NCBI GenBank assembly: GCA_938030895.1
Contig: CALHIV010000007.1
Location: 62,001 to 126,000 of the forward strand
Direction: 5' to 3'
DNA from: an uncultured Nitrososphaerales archaeon
Lineage (GTDB): Archaea; Thermoproteota; Nitrososphaeria; Nitrososphaerales; Nitrosocaldaceae
Length of the DNA stretch: 64,000 bases
Positions within the stretch are counted from its first letter, which is position 1. Each line of letters opens with the position of its first letter. A model generated the notes under the pieces. It was not told where the DNA came from and ran no database searches. It was given only the letters and a program-made list of their open reading frames with translations. Of the stretch, positions 53,591 through 63,306 are shown piece by piece. The position numbers and the translations under genes are program-made.

Positions 53591-53619
53591 TTAAATACCC
53601 ATACTATCAATCAGATATA
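53591..53619 (+). promoter_or_regulatory. TATA box of the ATPase-nuclease operon
   Basis: TTAAATA at 53591-53597, immediately after the ilvA stop, is 25 bases before ATG 53619. The three downstream genes therefore have their own promoter. Confidence 0.5.
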
Positions 53620-54872
53620 TGCAGTTAACTAGGTTATACGTAAAGAACTTTGGGCCTATAAAAGAGGCTGATATTGAGTTAGGGGATCTTACAGTTATAA
53701 CAGGGGCACAGAACTCTGGGAAGAGTTATCTTGCAACACTGATATATGCACTATCGAATGATCTTACTAATAAGTTGTATTCTCTACCCTCAGAAATAAT
53801 GAGAGAGCTTGGAGTAGTATATGATGTTAACACATTACGCAGTGTAGTAGAAGAGAAACGAGATGTTATCAATAAATACCTTGATGATAGTAAGTTCATA
53901 TCAGATCATGTTGGAATTGAATCCATCCTAAAGAGGCATTTCTTAAGAGAAGATATTATTAGAGTATCTTCCAAGAGTATGGAAATTATGGCAGAATATG
54001 CTAATGGTGTTAGATATAAGGTTGAGATAAGAAAAAGGAAAAGAAGGGGGAAGGAGAAGGAGAGGGAGAAGGAATCTGTAGAATTAATCGAGTATAATGC
54101 ACTTGAAGGTAAGAAAGATAATCTTATCTCTGAATGGATAAATAATCCTATTACTTATCCCACTTTTACTACTCGTACACCTTATGTTCTATTCATACCA
54201 GTAGAGCGAATGCTCATTCTATCACTCTTTGCACTTACTGTATCGCTTATCCTTGAATACTTGGTTAAATATAGCGAGATATTCACTATAAAAGCACATA
54301 TCTCATCCTATTTGCAAGTATTACAAGGTATACTAGCAAAGCCATCCCACTATGAAATTCTTCATATAGGTTCTCTATCTATTGAGAAGGGAGAGAAGTT
54401 GCCTCTTACTACTCTATATTTCTATGATAAAGAGAGGAATGTTACTCTGCCATTACATGCGGCAGGTTCAGGGATCATACAACTTGCTGGTATAATATTA
54501 CCGCTCTCTTTCTCTTTAAATCGTGTTAGTTCAGCCTCAAACCATATTAGTTCAGAGTTAGTAATAATAGAGGAGCCAGAGGTCAACCTGCACGCTGATA
54601 TGCACCTAAAGGTTGCTGATTACATAGCAGATAAGATAGCAGAGGGAAGGAAGATGGTGATAACAACACATAGCGAATATCTACTTGCAAGACTTGCCCA
54701 GTTGTATGCTGGAGGGAAGATAAAGGATATGAAAGTTTACTATATAGATAGAAGAGATAGGGTAGAGAGACTTGATATAGATGAAGAGAGAGGTGAGATA
54801 GAGCTACCAGAAGGGATAAGAGATGCAATAGATACACTCGCAAGAGATGCATTAAACCTGATAAAAGTATGA
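53619..54872 (+). CDS. SMC/OLD-like AAA ATPase
   Basis: A 417-residue ABC/SMC-like ATPase of the AAA_21 type. It starts QLTRLYVKNFGPIKEADIEL; Walker A is GAQNSGKS (29-36); Walker B is VIIEEPEVNLH (315-325); the switch histidine H351 is in TTHSEYLLARL. There is no TOPRIM domain after the ATPase core, so it is not an OLD or GajA nuclease. Between about 125 and 175 it has a charged insert. By eye its codon choice is more AT-rich than its neighbours. The stop overlaps the next gene by 4 bases (ATGA). Similar ATPases are effectors or sensors in phage defence; substrate unknown. Confidence 0.75.
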   Translation: MQLTRLYVKNFGPIKEADIELGDLTVITGAQNSGKSYLATLIYALSNDLTNKLYSLPSEIMRELGVVYDVNTLRSVVEEKRDVINKYLDDSKFISDHVGIESILKRHFLREDIIRVSSKSMEIMAEYANGVRYKVEIRKRKRRGKEKEREKESVELIEYNALEGKKDNLISEWINNPITYPTFTTRTPYVLFIPVERMLILSLFALTVSLILEYLVKYSEIFTIKAHISSYLQVLQGILAKPSHYEILHIGSLSIEKGEKLPLTTLYFYDKERNVTLPLHAAGSGIIQLAGIILPLSFSLNRVSSASNHISSELVIIEEPEVNLHADMHLKVADYIADKIAEGRKMVITTHSEYLLARLAQLYAGGKIKDMKVYYIDRRDRVERLDIDEERGEIELPEGIRDAIDTLARDALNLIKV

Positions 54873-55261
54873 ATACTAACATATCCTTTCCAGACAAGGA
54901 AAGAGGAAAGGGATGCGATATACTGATTAAATATAAAGATCGAGGATGCAAAGATTCATATGCCGTGGTTGAAGTCAAGAGTTGTAATTTAAACAGAAAC
55001 GATTTCTCTAAGGCTAATAAGCAATTTGAAACAACTACTCATGATTACAGGATAAATAAGGAACCGATTAAGATAATCTTGCATGAAGGTAAGAGGTGTA
55101 AAACAAAATCATTATTTGTTGAAGGTATCAAGAGCCATAATATAAAACTGATCTATCTGGATGGTATAGAAAAGACAGATTCTAGTAGGGATACACTATA
55201 TGATTTAATAATAGAAGACTATAGAAAGTGGAAGAATAGCCATAAAAATAAGCAGATATGA
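54869..55261 (+). CDS. Small PD-(D/E)XK-like putative nuclease
   Basis: A 130-residue protein with no family I can name. It has a D-x17-ExK arrangement: D17 in GCDILIKY and E35-V-K37 in YAVVEVKSCN, the core of restriction-endonuclease-like folds. A QFETTTHD motif (53-60) may supply the following helix. Small size means it would act as a subunit, probably with the ATPase it is translationally coupled to. Nuclease activity is inferred from three residues and context. Confidence 0.5.
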   Translation: MNTNISFPDKERGKGCDILIKYKDRGCKDSYAVVEVKSCNLNRNDFSKANKQFETTTHDYRINKEPIKIILHEGKRCKTKSLFVEGIKSHNIKLIYLDGIEKTDSSRDTLYDLIIEDYRKWKNSHKNKQI

Positions 55262-56081: not shown

Positions 56082-56300
56082 TTGAATGATATGGGAGATA
56101 TGGTGAAGGATATACTGGGGATTCTCTCGCATAAAGGCGAGGTTAGATTGGTTGAACTTATGGCTATGCTTAATGCATCTGAGGAGAGGGTTAGAAGCAT
56201 AGTGAGCATGCTAGAGAGCATGGGGCTTGTAGATGTTGAGAAGTGCAACGATCTCAGCATAAGGCTGAGTGATGAGGCTAGGAGGCTACTTGAGCGATAA
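56082..56300 (+). CDS. Small winged-helix DNA-binding protein
   Basis: A 72-residue protein consisting of one wHTH: VKDILGILSHKGEVRLVELMAML, NASEERVRSIVSMLESMGLVDV, then a short wing. It is likely a transcription factor, possibly for the radical-SAM genes 100 bases downstream on the same strand; that link is unproven. Start ATG 56082 or 56091. Confidence 0.7.
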   Translation: MNDMGDMVKDILGILSHKGEVRLVELMAMLNASEERVRSIVSMLESMGLVDVEKCNDLSIRLSDEARRLLER

Positions 56301-56399: not shown

Positions 56400-57989
56400 A
56401 TGACTAATAAATTATTAGATAGGATGGGCAAGAGGATAGTGCTGACAAATGATAGAACGTTGACAAGTGAGTATAGGAGTATACCGCTCTTCGACTTTCT
56501 TAGCTGTGCACCATCTGAGAGAGTTCCAGATAGGCTCTTTGAGTTCCTAGCACCAAACGTGAAGATGCATAATGGTGTACTGAGCAAGGCACCTTATGGG
56601 CTGAGGAAGATAGAGGCTGGGCTACTCAAGGGCTACAGCAGGGATGAGGTTGCTGTAGTGCATCCTGAGCATCTGCATGAGTACATAGATGAGGATACAA
56701 GGGTTGTGGGCATATATGCGATGGATCCATTGGGGCTTGCCCCTGTAAGCATGATGTTCACTGGAGGGCAGGTGTACTTCACACCAATAAACCAGAAGTA
56801 CTTCATCGATCTTGCAAGGATGTTAAAGGAGATGCGTCTAAAGAATGGCTACAGGTTCAAGGTTGCGGTTGGGGGTCCTGGAGCATGGCAGTTCGAGTTC
56901 AGGGTTGAGCAGCAAGAGGATCTCATGGTAGATCATGCAATAATAGGGGAAGCGGATCATGTTGCTGCAGATCTCTTCCATGATATAGAGCATGGAAGTC
57001 TTCAACCAAGGGTAAGGGTTGGGAGACAGCCAAGGATAGAGGAGATACCGGATATAGTTGGTGCAAGCATACATGGTGTTGTAGAAGCAATGAGAGGCTG
57101 TGGCAGGAACTGTGAGTTCTGTGAGCCTAACCTTAGGATAGCAAGGTTCATGCCCTATGATAAGGTCAAGAGGGAGATAAGCGTTAATGTCTCATCTGGA
57201 ACCCATAAAGTATGGTTACAGAGCGATGATATATTCCTGTACGGGCTTGAGGATAAGAAGGGGTTCATGCCCAACAGGGATGCGATAATCGATCTCTTCA
57301 CTGCTGTGATGTCTGTAAAGGGTGTAAGAAGGGCACAACCAACCCATGGTACTGTATCAGCAGTGGTAGCAGATCCAGATATGGTTAGAGCAGTCTCTCA
57401 AGTGATAAGAGCAAGCGCAGACAACATAATAGGGATACAGCCTGGGCTAGAGACTGGTTCTTCAAGGCTGATCAAGCGCTACATGCCGTTCAAGGCAAAG
57501 CCATTCTCTCCAGAGGAGTGGCAAGATGTGATATTCCATGGTACGAGGATACTCAACGAGAACTACTGGATACCTGCATATACGCTTATACTTGGTCTTC
57601 CTGGGGAGACCGATGAGGACTGTTGGGATACTGTAAGGCTTATAGATAGGATGGAGAGGGAGCTGCCAGAGCGCATAGGGAGTAAGGCGCACTTTACCGC
57701 AACGCCTCTAACCTTCGTACCGATAGGAGTGCTCAAGGGTGATGAGTTCTTCAATGCAGATAACATAAGTGAAGGGCATTACGCTGTAATATACAAGAGT
57801 TGGAGGCATACAATATACGAACTCTACAGTCTGCCTCCCTCTGTTATAAGACTCAACCCATTCCTGAAGTTTGCACTGATGAGGTTCTTCAAGTGGGGCG
57901 TTAAGATGATCCTCAGAGTTATAGAGGACTGGGGCAGGAAGCTAGGCTATGATCCAGAGAAGGTACTACTTGTAAGGCATGCGAACTAG
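56400..57989 (+). CDS. Radical SAM protein with N-terminal B12-binding-like domain (1)
   Basis: A 529-residue radical SAM enzyme. The N-terminal 210 residues form a Rossmann-like cobalamin domain, KIVLTNDRTLTSEYRSIPLF style start (RIVLTNDRTLTSEYRSIPL), with DPLG instead of the usual DxHxxG. The [4Fe-4S] motif CxxxCxxC is at C234, C238 and C241 in RGCGRNCEFC. The C-terminal 130 residues may be membrane-associated (hydrophobic LKFALMRFFKWGVKMIL). The closest known archaeal examples are GDGT ring synthases GrsA/GrsB, an inference from architecture and from its tandem partner. Confidence 0.75.
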   Translation: MTNKLLDRMGKRIVLTNDRTLTSEYRSIPLFDFLSCAPSERVPDRLFEFLAPNVKMHNGVLSKAPYGLRKIEAGLLKGYSRDEVAVVHPEHLHEYIDEDTRVVGIYAMDPLGLAPVSMMFTGGQVYFTPINQKYFIDLARMLKEMRLKNGYRFKVAVGGPGAWQFEFRVEQQEDLMVDHAIIGEADHVAADLFHDIEHGSLQPRVRVGRQPRIEEIPDIVGASIHGVVEAMRGCGRNCEFCEPNLRIARFMPYDKVKREISVNVSSGTHKVWLQSDDIFLYGLEDKKGFMPNRDAIIDLFTAVMSVKGVRRAQPTHGTVSAVVADPDMVRAVSQVIRASADNIIGIQPGLETGSSRLIKRYMPFKAKPFSPEEWQDVIFHGTRILNENYWIPAYTLILGLPGETDEDCWDTVRLIDRMERELPERIGSKAHFTATPLTFVPIGVLKGDEFFNADNISEGHYAVIYKSWRHTIYELYSLPPSVIRLNPFLKFALMRFFKWGVKMILRVIEDWGRKLGYDPEKVLLVRHAN

Positions 57990-57991
57990 GG

Positions 57992-59713
57992 ATGGTGAGA
58001 GATATGCTGGGAGATGGTAAGAGTGATGGCAAAGGTTACAAGATAGTGCTAACGGGTGACAAGTGTGCAATAAGCAACTATAGAGGATTCAACTGGATAG
58101 GGTTCATAGGCTGCATACCATCCAACTACCCAAAGATGCCATGGAATAGAAGGATAATGGAGGATCTATTCTTTGCAACCAAGAGTTACGATGGTGATGG
58201 TAATGGCAAGGATGATGGAAGGCTAATCATTGCTCCATATGGCATAAGGAAGGTTGAGGCCGCACTCCTAGAGTATGGTTTCGATGAGAAGGATGTTATA
58301 GTTGCTGATCCACGCAAATTACACAGGGTCATAGGCCCAGAGACCAAGGTTATAGGCTTAACTGTACACGATCCAATGGGCTACGCTGCTGTATCCCAAC
58401 TTGTAGCGTGCATGTTCAGGTTGATAAACTGGTGGCCGGCAAGATCATACACAGCGATGGCATTCAATGATCTCATAACGAACCCATTGCTGAAGAGGTA
58501 TGGTTCAAGGCTGATAGTTGGAGGGCCAGGGATATGGCAGTTGGAGGAGCATCCGGAGAAGATCATGGCATGGGGTATAGACTGCCTAGTTGATGGGGAG
58601 GCAGAGGGTATAGTAGGTAAACTATTCGATATGGCCGTTAGAGGAGAAGATTTGCCATCAAAGGCAAGGGGCATGCCCATGAGTAGCGATAGCATTCCTC
58701 TAATAAGGAACCCATCATCGAGCGGGATAATAGAGATAACTAGGGGATGCGGGAGGGGATGCCAGTTCTGCTCCCCTGATCTGCTCATGTTCAGATCTAT
58801 ACCAAAGGAGAGGATACTGAAGGAGGTTGAGATTGAGGTTAGACATGGGCTAAGGAATATAACACTTCACTCAGAGGATGCACTATTCTATGGAAGGAGG
58901 CTAGGCAGTTTTGAGGTGAACCATAATGCTATAGTTGATCTATGGGAGAGTGTTAAGAGCTTCCCTGGGGTAAGGAGTGTAGGTACCGACTTCTTCTCAT
59001 GTGCAAGTGTAAAGTCAAGCCCTAGAACGCTAAAGGCTATAGCAGAGATCATGGAGTTGGATGAGAAGAGCCCTGGGTTTGTAGAGACTGGACTGGAGAC
59101 TGTAAGCCCTGAACTCGTTAGGATGATAATGCCTGGGAAGGTCAAACCATATACTATAGAGCAGTGGCCAGATGTTATAGATGATGCCCTAAGCATACTT
59201 GATGATAACCACTGGTTCACCATAGCATCTATGATGACCGGTCTGCCTAGAGAGAGTGAGAGAGATGTGCTTAGATGCCTTGAGTTCATAGACAGGATAA
59301 AGCACCATAACGTATTCATCTGGATGTTCCCACTCATGCCATTGCGCTCTATGCGTAAGCAAGCAGCAAAGTGGATGCCAGAGTATACACCTTTGAGGCA
59401 GCAGCTCATACTTGAGGCTACAAAGCATTCAGTAGGGATGATAAACAGGTATGCATGGACATTGCTGAAGCCATTACCTGCGCATCTACGCTTCATAGCA
59501 TACAACTTCCTCAAGTATGTATCTGCTAAGATGCTTGAATACCTGAAGGAGGCTGAAGATGCAATAGAGCGTAATCGTGAGGATAGGCTGATGCTCTACA
59601 AGGACCTGGAGGTTGAAGTTAGCGATGAGGGCGAGGCTGTGATGCATATAGCAGAGATGGTGAATGAGCTTACAAGCCTACAGAGGTTTAACAGCAAGAA
59701 GGAGGAAGAGTAA
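57992..59713 (+). CDS. Radical SAM protein with N-terminal B12-binding-like domain (2)
   Basis: A 573-residue homologue of the preceding protein, starting just 2 bases after its stop. N-terminal Rossmann domain with HDPMG at the cobalamin-motif position; [4Fe-4S] cysteines C253, C257, C260 in RGCGRGCQFC; partner glycine-rich region FVETGLETVSPEL. Downstream C-terminal helices and a coiled coil ending in KKEEE differ from the first protein. The two form an operon and probably act on the same lipid or a pair of related positions. Confidence 0.75.
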   Translation: MVRDMLGDGKSDGKGYKIVLTGDKCAISNYRGFNWIGFIGCIPSNYPKMPWNRRIMEDLFFATKSYDGDGNGKDDGRLIIAPYGIRKVEAALLEYGFDEKDVIVADPRKLHRVIGPETKVIGLTVHDPMGYAAVSQLVACMFRLINWWPARSYTAMAFNDLITNPLLKRYGSRLIVGGPGIWQLEEHPEKIMAWGIDCLVDGEAEGIVGKLFDMAVRGEDLPSKARGMPMSSDSIPLIRNPSSSGIIEITRGCGRGCQFCSPDLLMFRSIPKERILKEVEIEVRHGLRNITLHSEDALFYGRRLGSFEVNHNAIVDLWESVKSFPGVRSVGTDFFSCASVKSSPRTLKAIAEIMELDEKSPGFVETGLETVSPELVRMIMPGKVKPYTIEQWPDVIDDALSILDDNHWFTIASMMTGLPRESERDVLRCLEFIDRIKHHNVFIWMFPLMPLRSMRKQAAKWMPEYTPLRQQLILEATKHSVGMINRYAWTLLKPLPAHLRFIAYNFLKYVSAKMLEYLKEAEDAIERNREDRLMLYKDLEVEVSDEGEAVMHIAEMVNELTSLQRFNSKKEEE

Positions 59714-59789: not shown

Positions 59790-60728
59790 CTACTCTCTAT
59801 ACTCCTCAACATCATACAGGCTTAATCCCTTGCTGCTCTCTGCTATACTCCATCTAGAGCCTATAGGCTTTGTATAGAATGGATAGAGGATGTATGCCAA
59901 TGCAAGCATGAACAAGCCTATAGGATCTGCCATTGCTGCCTTGAGGCCCTCAACCAGCATATCCTTCCTAGATAACCTCATATCCAGCCTATCTATGAAG
60001 TGCTCCAACTCTCTATGCCCAACAACTGCTCTCTTCACCTGCGATATGAACTCCTCTATACTCTCAACAGGCTTGAACCAGACTACAGCATCATCCCTAT
60101 ACCTAACCTGATAGCCCCTCTCAATGGTTATACACTGCATGTATAGGTCTATTGCTATAGTGTTGCTTGGTATCCTAGTTGCCTTTGCTATATTGCTCCT
60201 AACTGCCATAGCTCTACCCATTGCTATGTACTGGTTCATACCTAGAAGCCTAACCCTTCTAAGCCATGAGGAGGTGAATATATCTGCCCTCTCTGCTATA
60301 CTCCATCTCTTATTATAACCTTGCCTGCAATTGCTATTATATAAAGGCAAGGGCATGGGGTTTCCTGCACATAATCCTGCATGCTCATCATCCATGATCG
60401 ATCTTGCTAATAGCATGGTAGTGCATCTTGCAGGTATAACATCTGCATCATAGAGCACTATAACATCGCTCTTACCACTTGCATTAGCAAATATCTCATT
60501 CCATGCACTTGCAGCGCCCCTCCTCTCATCATGATGCATTACAACTATATTCAGCATACTCTTGCATGAGAAGTCTTTGATCATCTCTGGCGTTGCATCG
60601 CTCGAGTCATCTGAGATTATAACCTCTACTATCTCACCAGAGTTAAGATGCTGCATCTCCAGCGCTTTGAGCAGTGCCAGTATGCTATCCTGCTCATTGT
60701 AACTTGGTATACCAACGCTTATCCTCAA
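59790..60728 (-). CDS. Family 2 glycosyltransferase
   Basis: A 312-residue GT-A-fold enzyme. ISVGIPSYNEQDSILALLKAL begins the nucleotide-sugar site, EVIISDDSSDATPE and IVLYDADVIPA (the DxD) follow, and a membrane-proximal C-terminal part (GLFMLALAYILYPFY, about 275-290) suggests lipid-linked or surface glycan synthesis. The start is TTG 60728: a stop codon lies three codons upstream and no ATG or GTG fits. Divergent from tRNA-Tyr. Confidence 0.8.
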   Translation of the reverse strand: MRISVGIPSYNEQDSILALLKALEMQHLNSGEIVEVIISDDSSDATPEMIKDFSCKSMLNIVVMHHDERRGAASAWNEIFANASGKSDVIVLYDADVIPARCTTMLLARSIMDDEHAGLCAGNPMPLPLYNSNCRQGYNKRWSIAERADIFTSSWLRRVRLLGMNQYIAMGRAMAVRSNIAKATRIPSNTIAIDLYMQCITIERGYQVRYRDDAVVWFKPVESIEEFISQVKRAVVGHRELEHFIDRLDMRLSRKDMLVEGLKAAMADPIGLFMLALAYILYPFYTKPIGSRWSIAESSKGLSLYDVEEYRE

Positions 60729-61040: not shown

Positions 61041-61072
61041 AATTAAATACTCTATGGGAAGTGCATTACACA
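61041..61072 (+). promoter_or_regulatory. TATA box of the EF-2 gene
   Basis: AATTAAATAC (61041-61050) is centred 26 bases before ATG 61072. It fixes that upstream ATG as the real start and not the later in-frame ATG 61219. Confidence 0.6.
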
Positions 61073-63306
61073 TGCCTAGATTCAAGACGGTTCAAGAGGC
61101 ATTGAAGATAATAGGGCAGAAGGACCAGATTCGAAAGGTATGGAGTTTGCACTGAGTTTATGCTCCATACCCGAATGATTTTGGTGTCATAGCCCATGTA
61201 GACCATGGCAAGACTACGATGAGTGATAGCCTGCTAGCTGCTACTGGGATGATAAGCCCTAGCGTTGCTGGGGAAGCGCTTGCATTGGATTACTGGGACC
61301 TTGAGCAGCAGAGGCAGATGACCATCAAGGCTGCTAATGTAACGCTCTACTACGAGCATGATAACAGACCATACGTCATAAATATGATAGATACACCAGG
61401 GCATATAGACTTCACAGGAAGGGTCACTAGAAGTCTCAGAGCTATAGATGGTGTATGTGTTGTATGTGACTCAGTGGAAGGGATAATGACACAGACTGAG
61501 ACAGTAACTAGACAGGCGTTGGAGGAGAGGGTTAGGCCAGTGCTCTACATAAACAAGATAGACAGGCTTGTGAAGGAGTTAAGATTAACGCCAGATAAGA
61601 TGCAGGAGTGGCTTGCTAGAATAATAGCAGACTTTAATAGGCTCATCGATATATATGCTGAGCCAGAGTTCAAGGATAAGTGGAAGGTTAGCATCCAGAA
61701 CGATAGTGTTGCGTTTGGTTCAGCAAAGGACAGATGGGGTATAACAGCAAGCATAGCAGCAAAGAAGGGCTTCAAGTTCAAGGATGTATACGATGCATAT
61801 ATGAGCCCAGATGGTGCAAAAGGGCTTGCAGAGAGGGTCCCATTACATGAGGCCATACTAGGCATGGTTGTTAAGCACCATCCTCCTCCTCACGTTGCTC
61901 AGAGGTACAGGATACCAAAGATATGGAAGGGCGATCTGGAGTCTGATGTTGGAAGAGCGCTCCTAGAGTGTGATGAGAATGGTCCAGCGGTGATGATGGT
62001 TACAAATGTTGTTGTTGATCCTCAAGCGGGTCCTGTTGCTGTAGGGAGGCTATACTCTGGAACCATAAGCGATGGTGATCAGGTCTACCTTGTAGGGAGC
62101 AAGAGGACGGAGAGGGTTCAGTCAGTCACCATGTTCATGGGTCCATACAGGGAGATAGTTGGTAGTTTGACAGCAGGTAATATACCTGCGCTTCTAGGTT
62201 TGGAGCATGCTAGGGCTGGGGAGACTATATCAAGCATAAAGGATATAGTACCATTCGAATCGATAAGGTATGTATCAGAGCCAGTGGTTACAGTAGCGAT
62301 AGAACCAAAGCACCCAAAGGACCTACCGAAGCTCGTTGAGGCGCTAAGGAGGATAAGCATAGAGGATCCAAACCTAGTTGTGAAGATAAATGAGGAGACT
62401 GGAGAGATGCTTATGGCTGGGATGGGTGTGCTCCATCTAGAGATAGCAACCACGCTTCTACAGCAGCAAGGGTTAGAGATCGTAACATCTAAACCATTGA
62501 TAAACTACAGGGAATCGATAAGGAGCAAGGCCGGTCCTATAATGGCAAAGTCTCCAAACAGGCATAACAAGGTGTATGTTAGGGTTGAGCCATTGAGCAG
62601 TGATGTTATAGATATGCTTGTAACAGGGAAGATAAACGAGAATATGGATAGGAAGCAGATAGCAGCAGTATTGAGGGAGAAGGGCTGGGATGCTGATGAG
62701 GCCAAGGGTATAGTGGCCATAGAGGGTAGCAATCTCTTCGTTGATGCAACCAAGGGTGTCCAATACCTGCAGGAGTCGATGGACTCTCTACGCTCAGGGT
62801 TCACTGATGTTATGCTCGCTGGCCCACTCGTACAGGAGCAGTGTAGGGGTATCAAGGTTATACTCCACCACTTCGTACCCCACGAAGACCCAGCGCATAG
62901 AACCCTTGCTCAGCTACTCCCAGCAGCAAGGAGAGCGATAATGGGTGCTATGCTGAGCGCTGATCCCGTAATATTAGAACCTATACTTGGTATAGAGATA
63001 AGGTGCCCTGCAGAGATGATAGGTACAGTTGCTGGAGTACTCTCAAGCAAGAGGGGTAAACTGCTCAACATAGACCAGAAGGGTGTGATAGCGATAATTC
63101 AAGGTGAGATACCTGCAGCAGAGACCTCTGACCTCTCAGAGGTTATGAGAGGGGCAACAGCAGGCAAGGCGATGTGGAATACACACTTTAAGATGTGGCA
63201 GGCAGTACCAGCATCACTCACACAGCAGTTGATAGCAGAGATTAGGAAGAGGAAAGGGTTGAGCCCAGAACCGCCAAGGGCAGATGAGTTCATAGACAAG
63301 GAATAA
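61072..63306 (+). CDS. fusA: Translation elongation factor 2, interrupted by a BHB intron
   Basis: Ribosomal translocase GTPase. The coding sequence is two exons, 61072-61135 and 61178-63306, giving 730 residues, the archaeal EF-2 norm. Exon 1 reads MPRFKTVQEALKIIGQKDQI then R; the junction codon is A|AT (Asn); exon 2 continues FGVIAHVDHGKTTMSDSLL with the complete P-loop. The G2-G3 region IDTPGHIDF, NKIDR and the domain IV diphthamide loop HHFVPHEDPAHRT follow. Without splicing the frame hits TGA at 61153, and a start at 61219 would lose the P-loop. Confidence 0.93.
61136..61177 (+). other. Bulge-helix-bulge intron in the EF-2 gene
   Basis: A 42-base insert containing an in-frame TGA (61153-61155). 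Central helix TTCG (61130-61133) with CGAA (61172-61175), 5' bulge AA|A (61134-61136), 3' bulge TG|A (61176-61178), inner 9-bp helix GGTATGGAG (61137-61145) with CTCCATACC (61163-61171), and a 17-base loop. The outer helix CCAGA with TTTTGG is weaker. Cleavage after the second base of each bulge restores QIRNFGVIAHVDHGKTT exactly. Confidence 0.9.

Follow-up and report, generated by a model that had tools for sequence, protein, structure and literature searches.

Two adjacent Grs-family radical SAM genes of a Candidatus Nitrosocaldus species, putatively accessory enzymes of membrane lipids

Two adjacent genes in the window considered here (the whole stretch of 64,000 nucleotides that was analysed) encode radical SAM proteins that, judged by sequence, belong to the Grs family, one on each side of the split between GrsA and GrsB. 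The reading we favor, with a probability of about 0.55, is that they are accessory Grs-family enzymes directed at membrane lipids, gene 1 closing cyclopentane rings and gene 2, a divergent variant, acting on the same class of lipid.

The TEX86 temperature proxy is built on crenarchaeol and related lipids, and as late as 2026 the literature still listed the cyclohexane-forming enzyme as unknown (PMC12909067). The analysis removes a tempting pair of candidates and moves the focus to two paralogues whose occurrence goes with ammonia oxidation. It also points to Nitrosocaldus and N. gargensis as carriers of extra enzymes of the Grs type, and the lipids that these produce merit a search.

The gene pair and its surroundings

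56082..56300, plus strand: small winged-helix-like protein of 72 aa, the gene next upstream of the pair, kept in Nitrosocaldus
56400..57989, plus strand: gene 1 (P0001), 529 aa, Grs-family radical SAM protein, GrsA-side clade
56724..56735, plus strand: DPLG of gene 1 (D109-G112), where DxHxxG would stand, without the His
57099..57122, plus strand: CxxxCxxC of gene 1, C234-G-R-N-C238-E-F-C241 (CGRNCEFC), presumed 4Fe-4S ligands
57345..57347, plus strand: His316 of gene 1, a family-wide His (82/83 members outside the gene 2 clade)
57992..59713, plus strand: gene 2 (P0002), 573 aa, divergent Grs-family radical SAM protein, GrsB side
58367..58381, plus strand: HDPMG of gene 2 (H126-G130), compare HDPYG/HDPFG in GrsB
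58748..58771, plus strand: CxxxCxxC of gene 2, C253-G-R-G-C257-Q-F-C260 (CGRGCQFC)
58985..58993, plus strand: T332-D333-F334 of gene 2, aligned with H316 of P0001, where nearly all other members have His
59790..60728, minus strand: glycosyltransferase family 2 protein, downstream of the pair and convergent with it

An earlier, sequence-only reading of this DNA had described two homologous open reading frames of 529 and 573 residues, 2 bases apart, each with a CxxxCxxC motif. Both observations hold, the cysteines being C234/C238/C241 and C253/C257/C260. The two proteins are 32% identical across 428 residues (E 5e-69), and each matches Pfam Radical_SAM above the cut-off, with no other Pfam domain found in either (E up to 1). 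Since the order and spacing of the two genes are conserved in other Nitrosocaldus genomes and in G007, which belongs to another family, the arrangement is not a matter of chance, and from the spacing the genes would appear to form one operon.

The source genome (1.37 Mb, 98.7% complete) is that of a Ca. Nitrosocaldus species, an ammonia oxidizer of hot springs with an archaeal amoA, and gene 1 is 92-96% identical in its closest named relatives, also Ca. Nitrosocaldus species. The gene order around the pair is identical in G001, a complete genome (1,577,284 bp) of the same genus. The source genome has its own Tes (L001, on G000:C11), which matches the solved GDGT/macrocyclic archaeol synthase at E 7e-132, and tetraethers are accordingly the expected substrate.

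Upstream of the pair lie a gene for folate cyclo-ligase and the gene for the winged-helix-like protein, the latter a possible regulator of the pair by virtue of its position. The glycosyltransferase gene is the only other neighbor found to be kept beside the pair in G007 (47-50% identity); the remaining neighbors differ. Its best match outside is in G026; that genome also carries gene 2, though on a different contig, and genomes without the pair have weaker matches. A connection between the pair and polar head groups is thus possible but only suggested. No gene in the neighborhood proves a link to lipids, and this counts against the favored reading.

Farther downstream, the EF-2 gene (61072-63306, plus strand) has an apparent 42-nt bulge-helix-bulge intron at 61136-61177, with a central helix of TTCG/CGAA and bulges of AAA and TGA. 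Predicted splicing restores DQIRNFGVIAHVDHGKTT and an EF-2 of 721 aa; left unspliced, the frame runs into a stop. In L106, L145, L146, and L179, this site appears to be occupied by introns of 37, 63, 37, and 49 nt, respectively, and after splicing the first 60 residues of their EF-2 would be the same. Few archaeal protein genes contain introns. On the other side of the pair, at 53619-55261 (plus strand), is a two-gene module encoding an AAA_15 ATPase and a 130-aa protein, intact in the window. It was not found in L106, and there is only a short ATPase fragment in L145 and ATPase fragments with the small protein in L146. The module looks like a cassette that was gained and is decaying, possibly one related to defense.

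Family membership, predicted fold, and conserved positions

Reference members from the Sulfolobales were found by profile search, and GrsA and GrsB were taken from a complete genome of 2,225,959 bp. Its two clear members, at 199 kb and 1,354 kb, are unlabelled; they fit Saci_0240 (GrsB) and Saci_1585 (GrsA) of Sulfolobus acidocaldarius DSM 639, which we take them to be. The names and ring-synthase activities of the two enzymes are from the literature (PMC8473941, PMC10465181). Both window proteins align with GrsA and GrsB from end to end, including the N-terminal domain. The identity of gene 2 to either is only 29-31%, which counts against the favored reading.

A maximum likelihood tree of 61 proteins (IQ-TREE, LG+C20) is split by a branch supported at 98/96: on one side are GrsB, gene 2, and two deep relatives, on the other GrsA, gene 1, and every remaining type. 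A quick tree with an outgroup agrees with this placement of the pair. Gene 1 is sister (96/96) to proteins of Ca. Terraquivivens-like archaea, outside the GrsA clade, and these are also its closest relatives beyond its own orthologues (54-58% identity). The sequence-only reading had proposed that the pair might be GDGT ring synthases and named a phylogeny with GrsA, GrsB, and Tes as one means of finding out. That phylogeny puts both proteins within the Grs family and not far from it. The proposal thus survives as regards family, though not, given the distribution described in the next section, as regards being the synthases of crenarchaeol.

Closer relationships were considered and set aside. 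Neither gene is an orthologue of GrsA or GrsB, as neither falls within the clade of the Sulfolobales enzyme. Gene 2 as the exclusive sister of GrsB is rejected (p-AU 1.8e-4 under the model, long branches being involved), and so is the idea that the pair arose by recent duplication in tandem (p-AU 4.6e-42).

Membership in the family is not in itself new, since Grs homologues in Thaumarchaeota were already reported by Zeng et al. 2019, as that work is described in PMC8473941. In the open-licence papers searched, we found no report of six Grs paralogues in Nitrosocaldus, of two of them tracking amoA, or of the altered positions in gene 2.

Modelling with AlphaFold2, for which no sequences other than those of the window and the loci were used, gave pLDDT values of 78.5 (gene 1) and 85.6 (gene 2). 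The predicted structures match B12-domain radical SAM enzymes nearly end to end, which lends support, at the level of prediction, to the N-terminal Rossmann domain claimed earlier. The closest solved structure is MgmA (9ccb), with Z of 21.8 for the gene 1 model and 22.8 for the gene 2 model, followed by AprD4 (6fd2; 18.8 and 17.7), OxsB (17.8 and 16.6), and TsrM (about 16). A phmmer search of the PDB with gene 1 gave only weak radical SAM matches, and solved Tes (7tol) was not among them.

One might suppose from the structural matches to MiaB, RimO, and MgmA, and from NCBIfam matches to the same proteins, that the pair methylates or methylthiolates RNA or protein. We give this almost no credence. 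The NCBIfam matches fall far under the cut-off (best 52 bits vs 251), a separate MiaB-like protein, named by sequence only, is present in the genome (L002), and the tree groups the pair with Grs.

The replacement of DxHxxG by DPLG in gene 1 and HDPMG in gene 2 had raised a doubt about the use of cobalamin. The replacement is real, and neither protein matches Pfam B12-binding at E up to 1. It does not, however, separate the pair from the characterized enzymes: at the same place, GrsA has HHDYFAFGP and GrsB has AHDPYGLNP. Since both of these also lack the motif, its loss says nothing against membership in the family. Nor does its absence settle the matter of cobalamin, because some enzymes bind the cofactor without DxHxxG. 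AprD4 and MiaB/RimO, which rank high among the structural matches, use no cobalamin, so use of the cofactor is only a possibility for the Grs family as a whole.

The two genes differ in what they have kept. Gene 1 retains every family-conserved position, including N263, H316, and T395. Outside the gene 2 clade, these residues (in gene 1 numbering) are found in 83/83, 82/83, and 83/83 proteins, respectively; within that clade, they are E or Q, F, and S. H316 is likely to be near the active site, lying just after a barrel strand in the gene 1 model. All three cluster cysteines are retained by gene 2. Deeper relatives of gene 2, namely L032 (of G013), L241 (of UBA164), and L240 (of Conexivisphaerales), also have T-D-F at the position of H316, with N263 and T395 kept.

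Perhaps the pair modifies lipids or isoprenoids in some other way: by C-methylation, cross-linking of chains, or setting the stereochemistry of rings, or by acting on quinones or polyprenols. The closest solved structure is, after all, a methylase (MgmA, Z about 22), radical SAM enzymes of lipids are versatile (for example Gms, PMC11186832), and the changed positions of gene 2 fit such a role. Gene 1, however, has kept all that is conserved in Grs. Moreover, Gms is a SPASM-domain protein, and no SPASM domain was found in either window protein (Pfam, E up to 1); and the occurrence of chain-bridged GMGTs is linked to anaerobes (PMC11186832), while Nitrosocaldus lives aerobically. Modification of this sort is possible but, to our minds, doubtful.

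Distribution and the rings of crenarchaeol

The source genome has six Grs-family paralogues: gene 1, gene 2, and four that lie outside the window.

G000:C6:81003-82550: L016, Grs-family paralogue tracking amoA
G000:C13:72743-74467: L023, Grs-family paralogue tracking amoA
G000:C13:37912-39429: L011, further Grs subtype
G000:C13:59677-61194: L014, further Grs subtype

Types were assigned by tree and identity. The gene amoA was scored with an AmoA protein sequence as query, as Pfam PF02461 matched nothing, even in control genomes, and was found in 15/41 genomes of the order. The L016 type is present in 15/15 of these and in 0/26 of the rest, and the L023 type in 14/15 at an identity of at least 72% (draft G007 being the one where it was not found) and in 0/26, with best matches of at most 51% in these genomes without amoA. 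The counts come from a single lineage and so are not independent.

The window genes are distributed otherwise. Among the same 41 genomes, gene 1 occurs in the six of Nitrosocaldus and in G007, and gene 2 in those seven (77% identity in G007) and in G026 (66%). Two of 70 Nitrososphaeraceae have gene 2: G026 (66%) and G361 (71%). We take G361 to be N. gargensis, G360 N. evergladensis, and G377 N. viennensis. N. gargensis has L016, L023, an L011-like protein (L255), and gene 2, with gene 1 absent; N. viennensis has L016, two copies of the L023 type, and neither window gene; and N. evergladensis has only L016 and L023. Some 56 Nitrosopumilaceae-like genomes (f9) in the phylum sample have two members each (three in one case, owing to a partial gene). 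Neither gene 1 nor gene 2 occurs in Nitrosopumilaceae, where all members are of the two shared types, and both are missing from G006, a sister genus within the family of Nitrosocaldus and probably Ca. Nitrosothermus. Metagenome-assembled genomes of Ca. Nitrosothermus come from springs of 69-75 C (PMC7819960). Thermophily is therefore weak as a full explanation for where the pair is found, G006 lacking both genes.

Among the other paralogues, the L011/L014 subtype is found in Nitrosocaldus, G007 (L113), and N. gargensis (L255), the L011 form at 67-74% identity, and not in N. viennensis or N. evergladensis, a distribution resembling that of gene 2. The second L023-type copy of N. viennensis (L263, in G377) has diverged, with 75% identity to the L023 proteins of Nitrososphaeraceae.

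The sequence-only reading had offered the pair as the ring synthases of crenarchaeol or as a ring-forming enzyme together with one that forms cyclohexane. If so, the pair would be the crenarchaeol machinery itself, one enzyme for the cyclopentanes and one for the cyclohexane, and membership in the Grs family, the tandem arrangement, and the production of crenarchaeol by Nitrosocaldus (PMC3755460, PMC3615187) all fit. This notion does not withstand the distribution, and we consider it very improbable. Crenarchaeol and its isomer make up 80% of the core lipids of N. viennensis (PMC4129164), and Nitrosopumilales also make crenarchaeol (PMC6805073). Since these organisms do so without the pair, four cyclopentanes and a cyclohexane can be formed in its absence. 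N. evergladensis, too, has neither gene, and gene 1 is missing from N. gargensis, itself a maker of crenarchaeol. The types shared by ammonia-oxidizing archaea, L016 and L023, fit the distribution of amoA and would be the better candidates for forming the rings of crenarchaeol, the cyclohexane included.

The distribution bears also on the relationship between the two window proteins. Gene 2 might be a non-catalytic or stabilizing partner of gene 1 in a heteromer, as the 2-base gap, the tandem arrangement kept in G007, and the altered positions could be taken to suggest. This is unlikely, as gene 2 has all three cluster cysteines and is found without any orthologue of gene 1 in N. gargensis, a complete genome, and in G026. 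A more speculative and rather improbable idea is that gene 2 and its deeper kin (G013 L032, UBA164, Conexivisphaerales) form a Grs subfamily, with T-D-F for His, that carries out a C-H reaction on GDGTs other than cyclopentane closure and was kept in Nitrosocaldus, N. gargensis, G007, and G026, the crenarchaeol rings being left to the two paralogues common to ammonia-oxidizing archaea, one of which would form the cyclohexane.

Proposed roles and comparison with known enzymes

Family, motifs, predicted fold, position in the tree, and distribution, with the absence from some makers of crenarchaeol, are results of the analysis; substrate, reaction, order of action, and co-expression of the pair are all matters that we infer. 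According to the favored reading, a 4Fe-4S cluster on CxxxCxxC would cleave SAM, and the resulting 5'-deoxyadenosyl radical would abstract hydrogen from an unactivated carbon of a GDGT biphytanyl chain. Gene 1 would close cyclopentane rings as GrsA does, a role suggested by its having kept all family-conserved residues. Gene 2 would act on the same lipids, perhaps at a different carbon (as with GrsB) or in a related C-H reaction; its role is less sure because of the changed positions. In Sulfolobus, GrsA acts at C-7 and then GrsB at C-3 (PMC10465181, PMC8473941). The pair would work in addition to the two paralogues that ammonia-oxidizing archaea have in common, and not in their stead. Two further considerations weigh against the favored reading. 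Ring formation by a Grs member outside the Sulfolobales was not found in the open-licence papers searched. Also, we know of no lipid that is found in Nitrosocaldus and missing from other ammonia-oxidizing archaea.

Compared with L016 and L023, from the same family and genome (about 39% and 43% identity to gene 1, respectively), the window pair differs in that those types track amoA in the sampled genomes and it does not. The likeness to MgmA, AprD4, TsrM, and OxsB is one of overall fold (Z 16-23), with 12-21% identity and other substrates. Tes (the MJ0619 tetraether synthase) is a radical SAM enzyme whose substrates, as is presumed for the pair, are lipid chains of archaea, but the families differ. 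With GrsA and GrsB of S. acidocaldarius, the pair shares full-length homology, CxxxCxxC, the GG and GxETGS-type motifs, and an N-terminal B12-like domain without DxHxxG. It departs from them in three respects: neither window gene is nested in the clade of either enzyme; grsA and grsB are 1.15 Mb apart in S. acidocaldarius, whereas the window genes are adjacent; and the His that GrsA and GrsB have in common is missing from gene 2.
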